A DNA stretch of 35,026 nt from a virus: IMG/VR virus record IMGVR_UViG_3300010885_047510, positions 1-35,026 of that record; one strand, given 5' to 3'. The translations under genes and the position numbers were made by a program. The notes beneath the pieces were generated by a model. It saw only the letters and a program-made list of their open reading frames with translations, was not told the origin of the DNA and made no database searches. Shown one piece after another: positions 387 to 23,050 of the stretch (positions are counted from its first letter, which is position 1; every line of letters begins with the position of its first letter).

Positions 387-2699
387 CTATTGCTTCGTAT
401 ATTGTTGATCGTCTCTAATGTATATAGTGCCAGAAGGCAGCGCATCACGCTGTTCTTTTGTCGTAATAGTAACAGGTGCAGCTTGCGTAGCCTTCTCTGC
501 CGCCGCGTTATAAATCTGCTGCATACGCGATGGGGGTGATGGCATCGGTGGCCCCTGCTTCTTTCCAATGCTAGAGGCAAATTCAGATGGAGACAATTTC
601 TTGTCGACCATCGTCTCATTTTGCTGCCACGCTTTCATTGTTTGGTTATACCACTGAATCGCGCGCTGCTGACCCTTGCCATCAATGTTGCCATTTGCCA
701 TCGCAATTTGCTTCACCTGTGCCGAAAGAACACTCTTTATCGTCGGGTCAAGGTCAATAGCAGGCTTTGCATCCTGAAAATCTTTATAAGAAATGCTATA
801 GCCTGGGTTTGTTGAGCCAAGCCCTTTTGAAAGATAATCAATCCGTGCTTGGCGGGTGAAGTCTTTTGATGTGTCAAGCGCATTTAGAATTGCGTCATAG
901 CCGTTATCTGTATTGACCTCCGACTCCCGATGATTCGCCTTTGCTATCATGGTGTCTATTGTGCCGAAAAACTTACCCTGCTGCTGCATAGTTTTGTCCA
1001 GTATGGGCGCAACTCCAGGTATTAAGCGTAATTCTTCATATGTCGAAGGTAGCTTGCCTTTTGTGAGACTACCATTAATTGCCGATGTGATGATATTTTT
1101 ATCCGAATCAAGCGCGTCATTTTCGGTCTTTATTTGCTGCTGAATGTGCGTCCTTGCTCTGCGCTCTTGTATTTGCGCGCCATAATAATCTTCTGGGTAT
1201 TTTTCTAGGTATGCATCGGTAACATTTTTTACAAACGATTCTTCGTTTGCGCGCAAGTAATCAACCTTATTTGGATAAGTAATTTCGCCTTCCTGTTGCT
1301 GCAAGTTATTCAGCCGATTTGTCCACCCCTTAAAACTGGATGTGTATTGCGGATCGCCGGTAGCGTTAAGACGCTCATACTCTTTGCGACGCATATCAAT
1401 CAATGCTAGTGGCGATGCGCCATTCTTCGCGGCACCAATAAGAGATTTAGCGAATGCACCTTCTCCCCCGCCATTCACGAGATGATCGGCAACAATGGCC
1501 TGAGTATTTGCAGGAAGCGATTTTATATCGTATTTATCAATAAAGTTTTTCTGATAAAAATTATCGGTATATTTTTCGCCAGCATCCTTGCCTTGCGTCT
1601 TATATATCTCCTGTAATTCCTTGACTTCGTTCGGAAAATATTTTGCATTTATGCCATTGATAACATCATAGCTATTACTGTCCTGCCCAACCTTACCAGT
1701 GTAACCCTCGCTCCTGCGAATTGTCGCAAGCGGGGAGCTATTTATTTGCTCGGTAGGCGAGGCGGGGACGTTCATGAGTGTATTACGCACCCATCCGTTT
1801 TCTAATTCGGTGTCTTGCGATGCGATGTTCCCGCTGATAATTTCATTCTTCATTTTCGGAGCAAGGAATTTATTAAGCTGCACTTTTGCTGCATCAGGCA
1901 TGTCATCCCAATGTCTTTTTGACCAATCTGCCGCAGCCGCAGCGCCCTGATTATCAGCAACGGTTTGCGCAGCAGTAAAATATGCTGATGCTAACTTCCC
2001 ATTCGTCACAGCCATATGCGCAGCTTCAGCAGCTTTGCCCTCTGGAGTATCGGGATAGGAATAATGCCCCGTCTCCACATCCTCGCCATTCGCTACCGCA
2101 GAATATCCGTGCAAATCAGCAAGGGCATTACCGCTATGAATAATAGGCGCAAGAACCTGCTCGCCAAACTGCTTATCATCAAGAACAATTCCAAGGTCGC
2201 CTGTTTTGGATACAGCCGTATCCATCAGCGCGCCTTGACTATTAATGTTTGCCGCCTTCACTTGTGTCGCAGCATACTCATTGTAGCGAGCCGAATCATT
2301 TGCTACGGTATTATTTGTATTTATTAAAAATTGATGCTGGGATTTCAGCGGAAGATTTGCAGACCATTTTTCTCTTGTCGCTGCTAAATCCGCTTCATAT
2401 TGTGGACGCATCGCTTCGGCCTGCAAACCAGAATATTGAGAGTATTTTGCTTTGATGGCACCTGCGTCTTTTGTGAAACCAACTTCAGCATCATTTGCCG
2501 CTGTTTCCAGTATCATGCCGCCGAAACGATCTACTTGTTGTTGAGCCTCGTTTCCTAGTCGCTGTTCAGCACCCCCTATCTGCGCACCAAAATCATCAGC
2601 GTTTGCACGTACAGATAAAGGGCGCGCTCCGCTGCCCGATGTATCGGTTTTCTCAGGTACACTGCCCATTGGCCCGTAAAAATCAGCGGAATTTGGCAT
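387..2699 (-). CDS. Internal virion protein with lysozyme-like domain (gp15-like position)
   Basis: This 770-residue protein is probably ejected with the DNA and helps it cross the cell wall. The first 300 residues are Ala/Gln-rich and mostly helical. Residues about 325-468 look like a lysozyme or GH108-type muramidase module: a candidate catalytic Glu in RRSEGY (E331), then AIVADHLVNGGGEGAF and a terminal FKGWTNRLN motif. The C-terminal 300 residues are helical and of unknown fold. I chose the ATG at 2699, not the one at 2726, because it overlaps the upstream stop as TAATG, which implies coupling. The C-terminus is two bases from the next start. The structural role rests on order; the enzymatic call is moderate. 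Confidence 0.75.
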   Translation of the reverse strand: MPNSADFYGPMGSVPEKTDTSGSGARPLSVRANADDFGAQIGGAEQRLGNEAQQQVDRFGGMILETAANDAEVGFTKDAGAIKAKYSQYSGLQAEAMRPQYEADLAATREKWSANLPLKSQHQFLINTNNTVANDSARYNEYAATQVKAANINSQGALMDTAVSKTGDLGIVLDDKQFGEQVLAPIIHSGNALADLHGYSAVANGEDVETGHYSYPDTPEGKAAEAAHMAVTNGKLASAYFTAAQTVADNQGAAAAADWSKRHWDDMPDAAKVQLNKFLAPKMKNEIISGNIASQDTELENGWVRNTLMNVPASPTEQINSSPLATIRRSEGYTGKVGQDSNSYDVINGINAKYFPNEVKELQEIYKTQGKDAGEKYTDNFYQKNFIDKYDIKSLPANTQAIVADHLVNGGGEGAFAKSLIGAAKNGASPLALIDMRRKEYERLNATGDPQYTSSFKGWTNRLNNLQQQEGEITYPNKVDYLRANEESFVKNVTDAYLEKYPEDYYGAQIQERRARTHIQQQIKTENDALDSDKNIITSAINGSLTKGKLPSTYEELRLIPGVAPILDKTMQQQGKFFGTIDTMIAKANHRESEVNTDNGYDAILNALDTSKDFTRQARIDYLSKGLGSTNPGYSISYKDFQDAKPAIDLDPTIKSVLSAQVKQIAMANGNIDGKGQQRAIQWYNQTMKAWQQNETMVDKKLSPSEFASSIGKKQGPPMPSPPSRMQQIYNAAAEKATQAAPVTITTKEQRDALPSGTIYIRDDQQYTKQ

Positions 2700-18703: not shown

Positions 18704-18981
18704 AAATCCGCACTCCTTCTCATTGTTAATTCAGCATATCCGATTATATCTTCCATATGCATATCTTTCTCTGGTCCACCACATACAACCCTCGCCATCT
18801 TTACAGCGATCATCTCAAGCGATTCGCGCATTTCATTTGACAGCAGACACCAATTACTGCTTGTGCGCATTACCATTTTAATCGCTTGCGATATTCCAGA
18901 AACATCTGAGTACCGCCCATGCGTTTTACCGCGCTCCCGCAATAAACCATTAGTATCAATCACCCCTTTATCCCCCTGCAT
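18700..18981 (-). CDS. DUF6378-like phage protein
   Basis: This 93-residue protein has the pattern LLRERGKTHGRYSDVSGISQ, then a helix with MRESLEMIAVKMARVVCGGP and IIGYAEL near the C-terminus. These match the small conserved phage domain known as DUF6378 (RG.THGD.., EAL.MIA.K..RI..G, ..W.DIAGYA.L), whose function is unknown. The ATG at 18981 follows AAGGGAAAT; a GTG at 18963 that overlaps the terminase stop (GTGA) is an alternative start. It overlaps the terminase gene by 22 bp. Confidence 0.7.
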   Translation of the reverse strand: MQGDKGVIDTNGLLRERGKTHGRYSDVSGISQAIKMVMRTSSNWCLLSNEMRESLEMIAVKMARVVCGGPEKDMHMEDIIGYAELTMRRSADL

Positions 18982-21368
18982 ATTTCCCTTGACAACGGAT
19001 TATATTCGACCTGATGCATGTTACGCGCGGCATTATCTTCCTCGATTGGATAGCCGTTTATCATGCCAGCAACCTTGCGCACACGAGAGGCCGAGCGGAG
19101 TTGCATAATTGCATAGCGAGTACATGCCATCAAGTCATCGTACTCCTTCTGCACCTTTCCCTCTTTCCTGTGATACAACCTAAATTCTTCAAACCACTCA
19201 CTCAAATGCCGAAACACCCTAAACCTACCAGTCTCCATGCGCATCAGCATCTCTGTCAATCCCGCCTCTACCGAATTGCTCCCGTTTTCAAAAGTCGCAT
19301 GCTCCGGTAGCATATTAAGCCCTAAATCTCTATATGACACACTCAATTGCTCACCCGAATTTTTATCATGAATATTCCCATCATGCGGCCATGCCCACGG
19401 AAGTTTCCCCCATGGTTTAAGCGCAGCGGCATGAATAATAGGCGTAGCCTCACTCCGTTTATAACAATTCGTTACATAAATAATATCATCCTGCGGATTA
19501 TACAATAATTTTACTGCCGCAGTTGGATGCTCCCACCCGAAATCTATTCCCGCAATTTCTAACCAAAAAAAAGGCACCGATGCCATATCAAACGGATCAC
19601 ATGCAATGGCCTCCTCCGCAACAGGAAATATCCGCCCACTACCCAAAATAGGTTGCCCCATAATACGCGCATTACGCTCGTGCGCCGGATAACTATCAAT
19701 AATCTTTTGCCTCTCCGCCGGAGCAATATGCAGCGCATCCTCAATAGTCATATTAATATCGCAGCGGTCCGGCGATTTATCATGCAGAAATTTTCTAACC
19801 ACTTCGCTCATACCCTTGAGGGGCGTAAACGTCATATACAAAAACCCCTTCGTCGCGTTTGTCCGTGTCAATGCCTCCGTATAAATATCCAATGGCGGCT
19901 CTTCATCAAGCCACACAATATCAACCGTATCCGCCTGGAATTTCTCCCGCCCCTGCTCATAATATTTTAAGCGAATGCGCGTCTTGCCACCTGACGCATG
20001 CTTCACATAAATAGTATCAACCAAATCCGCTACACCCCTACTCGGTGTCGTCTCTACAATATCATCCAGCGGTATAAATCCTGTCCCTGGATTTCCCGAA
20101 TCCCCTATCAATAATTTCTGAATCGAATCCCGAACAACCTCGCCCGTTACACCTGCACACCAAATCACAGGCGCTTTCTTCAGTCGCACACCTTCCCACC
20201 ATGAGGGGTACTTGCCCGTAGCGTGAATTGCCGTGTTAGCGGCAGCGCACATGGTTTTTCCGCAATTATGATGTATAACCCCTTGTAATATATAATTATT
20301 ATTGACAGGAACATGGCAGTCAATAATTGGTTGCCAGCCTATAGGAATGTATGCTATAATCTTCTCGCCAAAAACTAAAACAGGAGATTCTAATGGGTAA
20401 AACATCGAAATGCGCCGAGCATCATAATTTGATTCTGCAAATGAACGAGCAAGGCTATGAGCGTCAAGAAATTGCACAGCACCTTGGCCTACCAAAGACG
20501 ACAATACAGAACTATCTCCAGTCTCGGAATATCCCCCCCGCTGCCGGAGGCGGGAAAAAACTTCTGCGTCAACTAGACACGATTCGCCAGATGATCGAAG
20601 TTCATGGGAAAAGTCAGCAAGAAGTTGCAGATTATTTTCATGTCCATGTTTCAGTGGTAGAAAGACTGATCGCATCCGTGGGCATGAAAACATCTCGTAC
20701 AGGGCCTCGCGCTGCAAGCGGCCACAAACAAAGGTGGAATGGAGGTCGGATTCTTGAAAAAAATTGGTATATTGGCGTATTTGTTCCTCTGCATCCTCAT
20801 GCGAAAACATCAGGCTATGTTTCGGAGCACCGGCTTGTGATGGAAGTGCATCTTGGTCGCTATCTTCTACCAACAGAGGTAGTTGACCATCGAGATAGCC
20901 ATACGCAACACAACTGGCCTGATAATCTTCGAGTTTATGACTCAAATGCAGACCATTTGAGCGAGACATTAACTGGTCGATACGGCAATAGCCGTGTTCG
21001 GTTAATATTTGGTGACTGGTCGAGCAGTCGAACCAGCGACCCGATTCCAGAACTACACGAAACGCTGGCTCAATCCCCCGAAGGATTCCGCGAGAAATTT
21101 GAGCGGTACATCGAGATTCACCGTCCCACGAAGGAACATTCGCGCCTTCCTCGAAAAAAATATCTCCGCACAGGCGCTCACCAGAATCCGTTTCCATAAT
21201 AGACCACGGCGAAAGACATTGATTGCCAGCACGCAACAGAGTTTCACGAAATTTACCAGCATTCCTGTGAAACATTTGCTGCTTCCTGTAAGGCCGATAC
21301 AACTCCAGCTTTCGCTTTTCCGCTTCAAGCCGCAAGCGCGCATAATCTTCAGCTGTAAAATCAGTCAT
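18960..21368 (-). CDS. terL: Large terminase subunit (ATPase-nuclease motor) interrupted by an intein
   Basis: The precursor is 802 residues; removal of the intein leaves about 484. TerL pumps DNA into the head through the portal and cuts the concatemer. The N-terminal half carries the ATPase: Walker A is rebuilt only after splicing as AGNQ|CGKT, and a Walker B-like IVWLDEEP is present. The C-terminal half has the nuclease's first acidic motif, IAGIDFGWEHPTAAVKLLY, and a DDLMACTRYAI helix. The ATG at 21368 overlaps the upstream zinc-ribbon gene; a GTG at 21383 is possible. The inserted 318 residues split the P-loop, so the ATPase must be inactive until the intein is removed. Confidence 0.9.
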   Translation of the reverse strand: MTDFTAEDYARLRLEAEKRKLELYRPYRKQQMFHRNAGKFRETLLRAGNQCLSPWSIMETDSGERLCGDIFFEEGANVPSWDGESRCTAQISRGILRGIEPAFRVVLESGRWFDCSTSHQILTEHGYCRIDQLMSRSNGLHLSHKLEDYQASCVAYGYLDGQLPLLVEDSDQDALPSQAGAPKHSLMFSHEDAEEQIRQYTNFFQESDLHSTFVCGRLQREALYEMFSCPRMRSVFLPLKHGHENNLQLLADFSHELRSSGESCLVDAEVFSRLRQRGGYSETGDSSVLSSLVGQGAVQFLDAHSLARSFAESNYDARRISMFYPLESPVLVFGEKIIAYIPIGWQPIIDCHVPVNNNYILQGVIHHNCGKTMCAAANTAIHATGKYPSWWEGVRLKKAPVIWCAGVTGEVVRDSIQKLLIGDSGNPGTGFIPLDDIVETTPSRGVADLVDTIYVKHASGGKTRIRLKYYEQGREKFQADTVDIVWLDEEPPLDIYTEALTRTNATKGFLYMTFTPLKGMSEVVRKFLHDKSPDRCDINMTIEDALHIAPAERQKIIDSYPAHERNARIMGQPILGSGRIFPVAEEAIACDPFDMASVPFFWLEIAGIDFGWEHPTAAVKLLYNPQDDIIYVTNCYKRSEATPIIHAAALKPWGKLPWAWPHDGNIHDKNSGEQLSVSYRDLGLNMLPEHATFENGSNSVEAGLTEMLMRMETGRFRVFRHLSEWFEEFRLYHRKEGKVQKEYDDLMACTRYAIMQLRSASRVRKVAGMINGYPIEEDNAARNMHQVEYNPLSREICRGIKG
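20331..20360 (+). promoter_or_regulatory. Promoter of the antisense intein nuclease, inside the intein
   Basis: TTGCCA (20331-20336) and a perfect TATAAT (20355-20360) with an extended -10 TG (TGCTATAAT) are 18 bp apart. It lies within intein codons, starting one base after the block F coding segment, and points rightward, antisense to terL. An SD follows at 20382-20386. Confidence 0.7.
20382..20386 (+). promoter_or_regulatory. Shine-Dalgarno site of the antisense nuclease
   Basis: AGGAG lies six bases before the ATG at 20393. With the promoter just upstream it makes a complete expression signal on the strand opposite terL, so the antisense reading frame does not look accidental. Confidence 0.75.
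20393..21199 (+). CDS. HNH homing endonuclease encoded antisense inside the terL intein
   Basis: This 268-residue protein lies wholly inside the intein coding region on the other strand. It has two HTH-like segments (about 15-45, QEIAQHLGLPKTTIQNYL; about 64-98, SQQEVADYFHVHVSVVERLI) and a full HNH nuclease motif at about 141-188: GYVSEHRLVMEVHLGRYL, EVVDHRDSHTQHNWPDNLRV and YDSNADH. That motif is far too specific to be chance. The last 80 residues lie antisense to intein splicing blocks A/B. It has its own promoter and SD, and its stop is 19 bp from the intein edge. The likely target is the intein-free terL P-loop, which would spread the intein. Homing is inferred. Confidence 0.92.
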   Translation: MGKTSKCAEHHNLILQMNEQGYERQEIAQHLGLPKTTIQNYLQSRNIPPAAGGGKKLLRQLDTIRQMIEVHGKSQQEVADYFHVHVSVVERLIASVGMKTSRTGPRAASGHKQRWNGGRILEKNWYIGVFVPLHPHAKTSGYVSEHRLVMEVHLGRYLLPTEVVDHRDSHTQHNWPDNLRVYDSNADHLSETLTGRYGNSRVRLIFGDWSSSRTSDPIPELHETLAQSPEGFREKFERYIEIHRPTKEHSRLPRKKYLRTGAHQNPFP

Positions 21369-21546
21369 ATTTACATTTACCACACGATTTTGTATTTCCC
21401 GATGTCAAATTACTAATTCTTACATTCACCACACTACCACACTCACACGCGCACGCCCACACATTTTCCCGCCCAGACTTGCCAATTAAGCGAAGCGCGA
21501 TTAATTTGCCGAAGTGCATTCCAGTTAGGTTTTTTCCGTAGGCCAT
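21361..21546 (-). CDS. Small zinc-ribbon DNA-binding-type protein
   Basis: This 61-residue protein has the pattern NLTGMHFGKLIALRLIGKSG, then WACACECGSVVNV and GNTKSCGKC. This layout (LTG..FG+L.., C.C.CG, L.SG.TKSCGC) is the zinc-binding N-terminal module of many phage AP2/HNH homing-type nucleases. Here it stands alone, directly before terL, and its last 8 bp overlap the terL start. It could be a remnant of a homing nuclease or an independent DNA-binding factor. No clear SD precedes its ATG. Confidence 0.65.
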   Translation of the reverse strand: MAYGKNLTGMHFGKLIALRLIGKSGRENVWACACECGSVVNVRISNLTSGNTKSCGKCKYD

Positions 21547-21884
21547 TAAAGAACGATAATTTCATTATAATAATACAGAATATCATGAAATTTTATGTAG
21601 GTCAAGTGACATATTTTACACGCGGATATTTTTTGTGGAGGTTTGGTAAGTGACATTATTTGTAGCCGCGTTGTAGCTGGGGGACTATAAAAGTCTCTTA
21701 TCCACCATTGGGGGTATCCCCAGCCCCTGCCACCCCTCCTTCTGAGTTTCCGCTACGCTTACGCTCTATCGCTGGCATAAAATAAGATGGAATATGTTGC
21801 TCATGTTTTATAATGCGTTCGCTTTGCTCACAAACTATAAGAAGTGATTAAGTATTCATTCCGTTATCGTAACGAAACAATTAT
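21547..21884 (-). other. Gene-free region between the small terminase and the zinc-ribbon gene
   Basis: No reliable gene is seen in these 338 bp. It holds a leftward promoter candidate (21577-21605), copies of the TGTCACTT motif at about 21602-21611 and 21647-21656, and a GC-rich block with alternative hairpins: GCTGGGG (21676-21682) with CCCCAGC (21718-21724), or TGGGG (21709-21713) with CCCCA (21718-21722). Packaging sites often lie near terminase genes, so this is a candidate pac/cos region; nothing in it proves that. Confidence 0.5.
21577..21605 (-). promoter_or_regulatory. Candidate leftward promoter for the zinc-ribbon/terL genes
   Basis: Minus-strand TTGACC (21605-21600), a 17 bp spacer and TATTCT (21582-21577) preceded by TGA (extended -10 TGATATTCT). 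The same TGATATTCT appears in the promoter at 23714-23742. The -35 lies within the repeated TGTCACTTGAC motif. Confidence 0.55.
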
Positions 21885-22490
21885 CTATTCATTATCACCT
21901 AATTTTTCTGGCATAGGTGGAATAACAAGCGCATCTTGCCCCGTTATTTTTGCCAATGATTGCTCAAGCTTTAATAATCTTTCTGTACTCATTTTTTGAA
22001 TAGGGTCAATTTCAACTTTCATTGAAATAGATTGTGCTGCTTTTCCTTTTGTGCGATCAGTCCATTCTTTCAAAACATTTAACGATGAATTTGCGCTTTC
22101 AGATGTCAAGCCAGTATGCAGTAATTTCAAGCGCACAGCTTCGTATGCTTCATCATCTGACATAATGCCAACGCCCCAGATTGAGCCGGAAACTTTTTTA
22201 ATTAGCGCGATCAATTGTGGTTTTGAAAATGTTTCTAATTTGTTGAGTGTTTCTTGTGTTATTGGTTCGCCCAGGCGATAGGAATTTGGAGTGCCAAGGC
22301 CGCGACCATTCGGACCAGCATTATTGCCAGGTGCAAATTTACCATTCGGCAAATGTGTAATAGGTAATTCCACATTATTTTCATGTGAATTTAATTCTAC
22401 ATTATTATTTTGTGGATTAGAATCCTTTAATTCCACAGAAATATTATGTAAATAGGGTTTTTTTACGCTTTCGGTGGATATATCAATCAT
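21885..22490 (-). CDS. Probable small terminase subunit
   Basis: This 201-residue protein is the first gene of the leftward block, where the small terminase is expected. It has an Asn-rich N-terminal region with repeats of NNVEL, a basic PNGKFAPGNNAGPNGRG linker (read as PNGKFAPGNN then AGPNGRG), and a helical C-terminal part (LNKLETFSKPQLIALIKKVS, then SANSSLNVLKEWTDRTKGKA). The GKFAPGN..GPNGRG segment is common in phage small terminase-type proteins. The role is inferred mainly from position. No strong SD is seen. Confidence 0.6.
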   Translation of the reverse strand: MIDISTESVKKPYLHNISVELKDSNPQNNNVELNSHENNVELPITHLPNGKFAPGNNAGPNGRGLGTPNSYRLGEPITQETLNKLETFSKPQLIALIKKVSGSIWGVGIMSDDEAYEAVRLKLLHTGLTSESANSSLNVLKEWTDRTKGKAAQSISMKVEIDPIQKMSTERLLKLEQSLAKITGQDALVIPPMPEKLGDNE

Positions 22491-23050
22491 AAGTTATGCC
22501 CAAAAACTTATATAAATGCGATTACAGCATGTTTCCATACCCCTAACTTACACCATATCAGGAATTTAATCAACCCCTCTATTTCATGCTTTATTATGAA
22601 TATATACAGCACTGAATACAAAATACTATAACCTACTGATGTCCATAAACATTTTAAAAGTCCATTGAAGTCATAGCATAGCCTGGACGTAATTAAGCAT
22701 TGATAAATAACAAAATAATGCTTTACGTCCTGAAGTCCCCGAAAAATTCTCAAATTTATGGGGCTAGAAAATGCAATATCTGTAATTGCAATATACAATA
22801 TTGGTAAAATATAAAAACACACTCTTTTACCTATATTTGCTTGGACTTCAGGACTTGATTAATATTATATATATAAAACAACAGATAATAGAAATCTGAC
22901 TACAGCTAACCTTCAAGGACTTGGATTGGACTTGGAAAGGATTTTGTCTGGACTTCATGCTTTTTTATATTTACATTGATATGGTTTTATAATATAAATA
23001 TGCATTCACTATGCTTTTTTCTATAACAATACAATAAAAGGAATATATAC
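22491..23050. other. Divergent control region between late (leftward) and early (rightward) genes, possible origin
   Basis: These 560 AT-rich bases separate the two transcription directions and contain no convincing gene. They carry a cluster of short GGACTT/AAGTCC repeats (22658-22955), a very AT-rich stretch (about 22859-22878) beside the repeat pair, and a TATAAT (22988-22993) with no good -35. A regulator-controlled divergent promoter region or a replication origin would both fit. Confidence 0.5.
22658..22955. repeat. Cluster of GGACTT/AAGTCC repeats
   Basis: GGACTT occurs at 22843, 22851, 22917, 22928 and 22950, and its complement AAGTCC at 22658 and 22733; related TGGACG/CGTCC occur at 22684 and 22726. 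The pair at 22843-22856 (GGACTTCAGGACTT) is matched in reverse by GTCCTGAAGTCC at 22727-22738. Density and symmetry suggest protein-binding iterons or operators. Confidence 0.6.

Follow-up and report, generated by a model that had tools for sequence, protein, structure and literature searches.

The window analysed here, the whole 35,026 nt stretch of viral DNA (positions 1 to 35,026 of IMG/VR record IMGVR_UViG_3300010885_047510), carries a large terminase gene, henceforth referred to as terL, with a putative intein inserted in its Walker A motif and an HNH endonuclease ORF on the strand opposite the insertion. The features of the locus are collected in Table 1. The original prediction that the nuclease is read rightward and terL leftward was correct relative to the replication and structural genes. 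The rightward genes include replication-type functions (primase-helicase, exonuclease and Dda-like helicase), and the leftward genes include the structural tail, major head and head-tail proteins in addition to terL.

Table 1 Features of the terL locus in the window. A slash marks a splice junction.
Feature	Position	Strand	Remarks
terL (large terminase) ORF	18960-21383	-	807 aa, intein-interrupted; Terminase_6N 4.9e-32, Terminase_6C 2e-18
terL N-extein	21219-21383	-	
terL C-extein	18963-20264	-	
Putative intein	20265-21218	-	318 aa; insertion in terL Walker A motif, GNQ/C ... HHN/CGKT
Intein block B region	20993-21052	-	Opposite the nuclease C-terminal tail; amino acid identity 0.52 for the intein, 0.41 for the nuclease
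-35 hexamer TTGCCA	20331-20336	+	
Extended -10 TGCTATAAT	20352-20360	+	TG at 20352-20353, TATAAT at 20355-20360
Shine-Dalgarno AGGAG	20382-20386	+	6 nt before the ATG at 20393
Antisense HNH endonuclease	20393-21199	+	268 aa; N-terminal helix-turn-helix domains; entirely within the intein
HNH core	20825-20959	+	EHRL ... EVVDH ... N...NL ... NADH (alignments A1 and A5)

The splice junctions were read directly from the terL translation (RAGNQ/CLSPWS...VIHHN/CGKT), and the terL frame remains open across the whole insert. The residues for protein splicing are present, namely an N-terminal Cys nucleophile, a C-terminal HN and a Cys at position +1, and C1, H317 and N318 are invariant in alignment A4, as is H69, the block B histidine in the sequence STSH. 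In the AlphaFold2 model the N- and C-terminal beta-rich parts of the intein are confident and the middle (residues 110-266) is of low confidence. Foldseek returned the Ssp DnaB mini-intein as the best match to this model (E 3.2e-6), together with DnaE and RecA mini-inteins, so that the insert is predicted to adopt the Hint fold of mini-inteins. The Pfam Intein_splicing profile did not match the window intein and matched 2 of 14 members, at best with 6.4e-4. An RNA (group I) intron at this position was ruled out by the open terL frame and by the absence of any Rfam match over 18900-22600 at E values up to 1.

The nuclease ORF of the window is full length. Its HNH residues E145, H146, H166, N174, N178 and H188 are invariant in alignments A1 and A5, and HNH_3 was matched in 19 of 23 nuclease members. 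Foldseek matches to the whole nuclease were weak throughout, the first being I-HmuI (E 0.22), and the fold by itself was therefore not taken as proof. The canonical layout, in which the endonuclease is fused in frame within the intein, was not found here; the nuclease is on the opposite strand at all loci.

TTGCCA-18-TATAAT with its extended TG, the AGGAG and the ATG, all predicted to lie within the intein reading frame just beyond block F, were confirmed there, on the N-terminal side of that block; the promoter and Shine-Dalgarno elements thus occupy the run of intein codons that separates the C-terminal splicing blocks from the nuclease start. The two hexamers are separated by an 18 bp spacer, transcription would be expected to start near 20367, and the -10 ends 32 nt upstream of the nuclease ATG, a position common to many relatives. 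No other site on either strand of the window has as high a sigma-70 score as this putative promoter. Generic promoter matches in this part of the window were not enriched (26 found, 26.2 expected from shuffles). In a synonymous recoding test, the intein protein was held fixed and its codons were redrawn from terL usage in 20,000 versions; the promoter score was reached in 330 of them (1.65%, p = 0.0165), and the promoter score and AGGAG together in 5 (0.025%). Taken alone, the modest p value for the promoter and the lack of generic enrichment would be compatible with the promoter and ribosome site being chance by-products of intein codons or base composition from which the nuclease is not expressed. 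This explanation was weighed against the wider family.

The family sample was obtained by searching IMG/VR and cultured phages with the nuclease and its alignment. At 97 of 97 loci examined, the window counted, an open terL-type frame of about 500-1200 aa faces the nuclease on the other strand, and the codon phase is identical in every case, nuclease position 1 lying opposite intein position 1, position 2 opposite 3 and position 3 opposite 2. In most loci the intein ends with HN/[CST] in or beside GK[ST], some being inserted one step later (GK/T). The distance from the splice junction to the start of the nuclease is 113-134 nt in most loci. For a second, independent sample, members were picked solely by a protein alignment of the intein C-terminus. 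The same nuclease family is present in most of them and was found only in one antisense frame; the nuclease-free remainder consists mostly of short inteins and a few large ones. Among cultured phages, the carriers are Ymer and its relatives (Pectobacterium), Setonix (Dickeya) and PHS3 (Pseudoalteromonas); single-protein queries found no relatives in bacterial genome contigs. The public annotation of phage Ymer gives the terL frame only. In PHS3 (locus L011, 1041-4882) the annotated terL is truncated because the HNH was called on the opposite strand, and a terminase ATPase subunit is annotated further upstream.

Additional insertions were observed in several of these terL genes. In L001 (1560-5168, minus strand), the same terL gene bears a second intein in its nuclease half, within which a same-strand, out-of-frame HNH ORF is hidden (1771-2448, minus strand; HNH_3 E 9.4e-15), so that one gene houses both an antisense and a same-strand hidden HNH. 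L047 (1680-4832, minus strand) resembles it: besides the antisense HNH of the Walker A intein, its terL frame of 1051 aa holds another ORF (1783-2538, minus strand) that is on the same strand, out of frame, and has an HNH-like motif. The terL frames of L018 (1578-5030, minus strand; 1151 aa) and L049 (1353-4934, minus strand; 1194 aa) exceed those of their relatives, which suggests a second insertion in each, here lacking an obvious HNH motif.

Promoter signals were evaluated in 62 clusters at 80% identity, each compared with synonymous recoding of its own intein. The upstream sigma-70 score exceeded recoding in 56% of the 62 clusters at p <= 0.05 and in 32% at p <= 0.01, using a weight matrix of general E. 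coli-like consensus frequencies and nuclease starts assigned as the first ATG, a rule that adds noise. At control sites antisense to the terL exteins (n = 372) the corresponding value was 3% at p <= 0.05 (Mann-Whitney 1.5e-21 against the clusters). Shine-Dalgarno matches of at least 5 nt were found at 40% of cluster starts and 3% of control sites. Column-permuted motifs gave a mean of 8%, and 0 of 200 reached the 48% of the true motif, all scored without the TG bonus; low G+C therefore does not explain the promoter excess. By these measures the sigma-70-type promoter signal predicted in this family is in excess of coding constraint. A separate observation was that the extein antisense control sites score below synonymous recoding (median p 0.68, 62 clusters), as if promoter-like sequence antisense to terL were avoided outside the intein.

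Near-perfect promoters occur in unrelated terL genes (for example TTGACA-17-TATACT and TTGACA-18-TATAAT), and that of PHS3 is TTGACA-17-GATAAT. The -10 repeatedly lies 31-33 nt upstream of the ATG, the window being one such case; another group has it 6-11 nt upstream, a position that would imply leaderless messages. The -35 of the window is not retained in its nearest relatives. About 40% of clusters have no significant sigma-70 match and may use other promoters, have mis-set starts or have decayed. The promoter signal was detected in 52% of 42 nuclease-bearing inteins and in 1 of 14 sister inteins without a nuclease. The exception, L147, has lost the nuclease coding region and retains TTGACA-17-TATACT with an SD-like AGGAGG near the junction, an apparent relic of nuclease deletion. 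Synonymous recoding, the extein control sites and the permuted motifs all speak against a chance origin of the promoter, which was rejected; with the promoter largely missing from nuclease-free inteins and the -10 position repeated, it must be considered very improbable. The original claim that the nuclease can be expressed independently of terL from signals in intein codons is, at the level of sequence, strongly supported family-wide.

Divergence at the three codon positions was then used to compare the two overlapping frames. In 3202 of 3205 pairs, conservation is higher for the nuclease than for the intein frame opposite it, a count that is descriptive because the pairs are not independent. 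Nuclease third positions are the most variable. A spurious antisense ORF was rejected on the basis of this codon-position divergence. Conservation flips in the block B region, where the intein frame is above the nuclease frame. With the nuclease constrained in most of the overlap and the intein at block B, both proteins appear to matter, in different stretches.

The same data bear on a reading in which the promoter mainly generates antisense RNA, or antisense transcription, over the 5' part of terL and so delays terL, the nuclease being secondary. The predicted transcript does run into the terL 5' end, and the scan listed no terminator-like plus-strand site from the nuclease stop up to the start of terL. 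However, codon-level selection falls on the nuclease protein, the Shine-Dalgarno and start are enriched, and most nuclease-free inteins have no promoter, which together make a primarily regulatory antisense transcript unlikely.

Evidence for mobility was obtained from related phages. The terL of Pseudoalteromonas phage AL (L186), 94.9% identical to its PHS3 counterpart, is missing precisely the 900-bp intein. Around the insertion point the flanks agree at 118 of 120 positions, showing an empty site for this pair; both mismatches are within 4 nt of the site, at the N-extein bases adjoining the insertion, and possibly fall in the recognition site. Nucleases about 50-60% identical reside in terL genes whose C-exteins lack significant blastp similarity, as was the case for 1117 of 1622 comparable C-extein pairs. 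In L001, the nearest relative of the window, the nuclease contains two stop codons, and some copies are therefore dead. This pattern of gain, spread and decay is that expected of a homing element.

Since the HNH always lies within a terminase-type gene in this family, it might instead be a working part of the DNA-packaging machinery, similar to the free-standing HNH proteins found close to terminase genes, rather than a homing endonuclease. Such a role is very unlikely given the HTH-HNH_3 make-up with I-HmuI as first structural match (at a weak E-value), the absence of the whole element from the close relative's terL in AL compared with PHS3, the broken copy in L001 and the scatter of the nuclease over dissimilar terL genes. 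The stops in L001 and the promoter and SD kept by L147 after nuclease loss would also be compatible with the window nuclease being an inactive relic and its promoter a leftover. This is improbable as well, as the window ORF is full length and all invariant HNH residues, the SD and the ATG are intact.

The locus is therefore very probably a mobile intein with an antisense homing endonuclease gene that would be expressed from its own promoter. Sequence-level support comes from the architecture, the fixed antisense phase, the selection on the nuclease frame and the promoter and SD signals beyond codon constraint, with further support from the predicted Hint fold and from related phages in which one and the same site is either occupied by the element or empty. 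From this evidence we infer transcription, cleavage, homing, splicing and early timing of the element. In the proposed mechanism, the Walker A motif of terL would carry a protein-splicing intein into whose codons the sigma-70-type promoter and Shine-Dalgarno of the nuclease gene are written, so that the nuclease would be made from its own rightward transcript regardless of terL transcription. The nuclease would cut intein-free terL alleles during mixed infection, and repair would as a result copy intein and nuclease together; protein splicing would restore terL. As originally suggested, the nuclease may plausibly act ahead of terL synthesis, since a host-type sigma-70 promoter requires no phage factor; early expression would follow were host RNA polymerase to use the promoter upon entry. 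The embedded signals and the direction in the original prediction were borne out and independent expression was strongly supported; that the arrangement is a widespread mobile class and no single case had gone unrecognised.

A more comprehensive joint reading is offered tentatively and is rather doubtful as a whole. It would describe a widespread class of mobile inteins in which two opposite-strand proteins share one fixed codon phase, constraint is divided regionally, the nuclease promoter is coded in the splicing domain and the two genes act at different times: the rightward promoter of host type would act first, for homing, later leftward terL transcription would shut it off, and the element would also time the packaging gene.

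Intein homing endonucleases are usually regarded as domains that are produced along with their host protein. Separate nuclease genes tied to an intein are reportedly found in the fractured genes of Dassa and colleagues (2009), where the homing endonuclease gene is said to lie between the halves of a split intein; the window intein differs in being one continuous frame that the nuclease overlaps antisense. Inteins with active endonucleases in terL P-loops are known, including those of mycobacteriophage TerL (PMC5050341), which resemble the present element in that a protein-splicing Hint domain interrupts the Walker A motif of a phage terL and that nuclease and intein travel together. Inteins of this known kind carry a LAGLIDADG or HNH endonuclease in frame, whereas the window nuclease is a separate antisense gene with its own promoter and ribosome site. 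The ShiLan domain is a homing-type HNH likewise hidden in the open reading frame of a host gene, on the same strand and in another frame of a non-intein insertion in a phage methylase; its authors detected no ribosome site and posed the translation of such genes as a question (PMC11855218). The window nuclease differs in being antisense, in a Hint intein and equipped with a promoter and SD. Antisense homing endonuclease genes are also found in nuclear rDNA group I introns, such as that of I-DsqI, for which expression and cleavage were shown (PMC9548176). The endonuclease gene there also opposes the interrupted gene, and I-DsqI is independently expressed and cuts the empty site, but these are RNA introns of rRNA genes with an untranslated sense strand (PMC9548176), while both strands of the window locus are protein-coding. 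No description of an antisense endonuclease within an intein was found in the open-access literature, and one may exist elsewhere.

The predicted promoter bears directly on the question posed for hidden HNH genes, namely how they are expressed (PMC11855218). Annotation pipelines hide one partner of the pair, as seen for Ymer and PHS3, and PHS3 and AL constitute an almost ready-made occupied/empty pair for testing. The loci provide a large natural collection of dual-coding gene pairs, fully antisense and in a single fixed phase, in which the nuclease, uncoupled from its host gene, could be made while the target gene is off.
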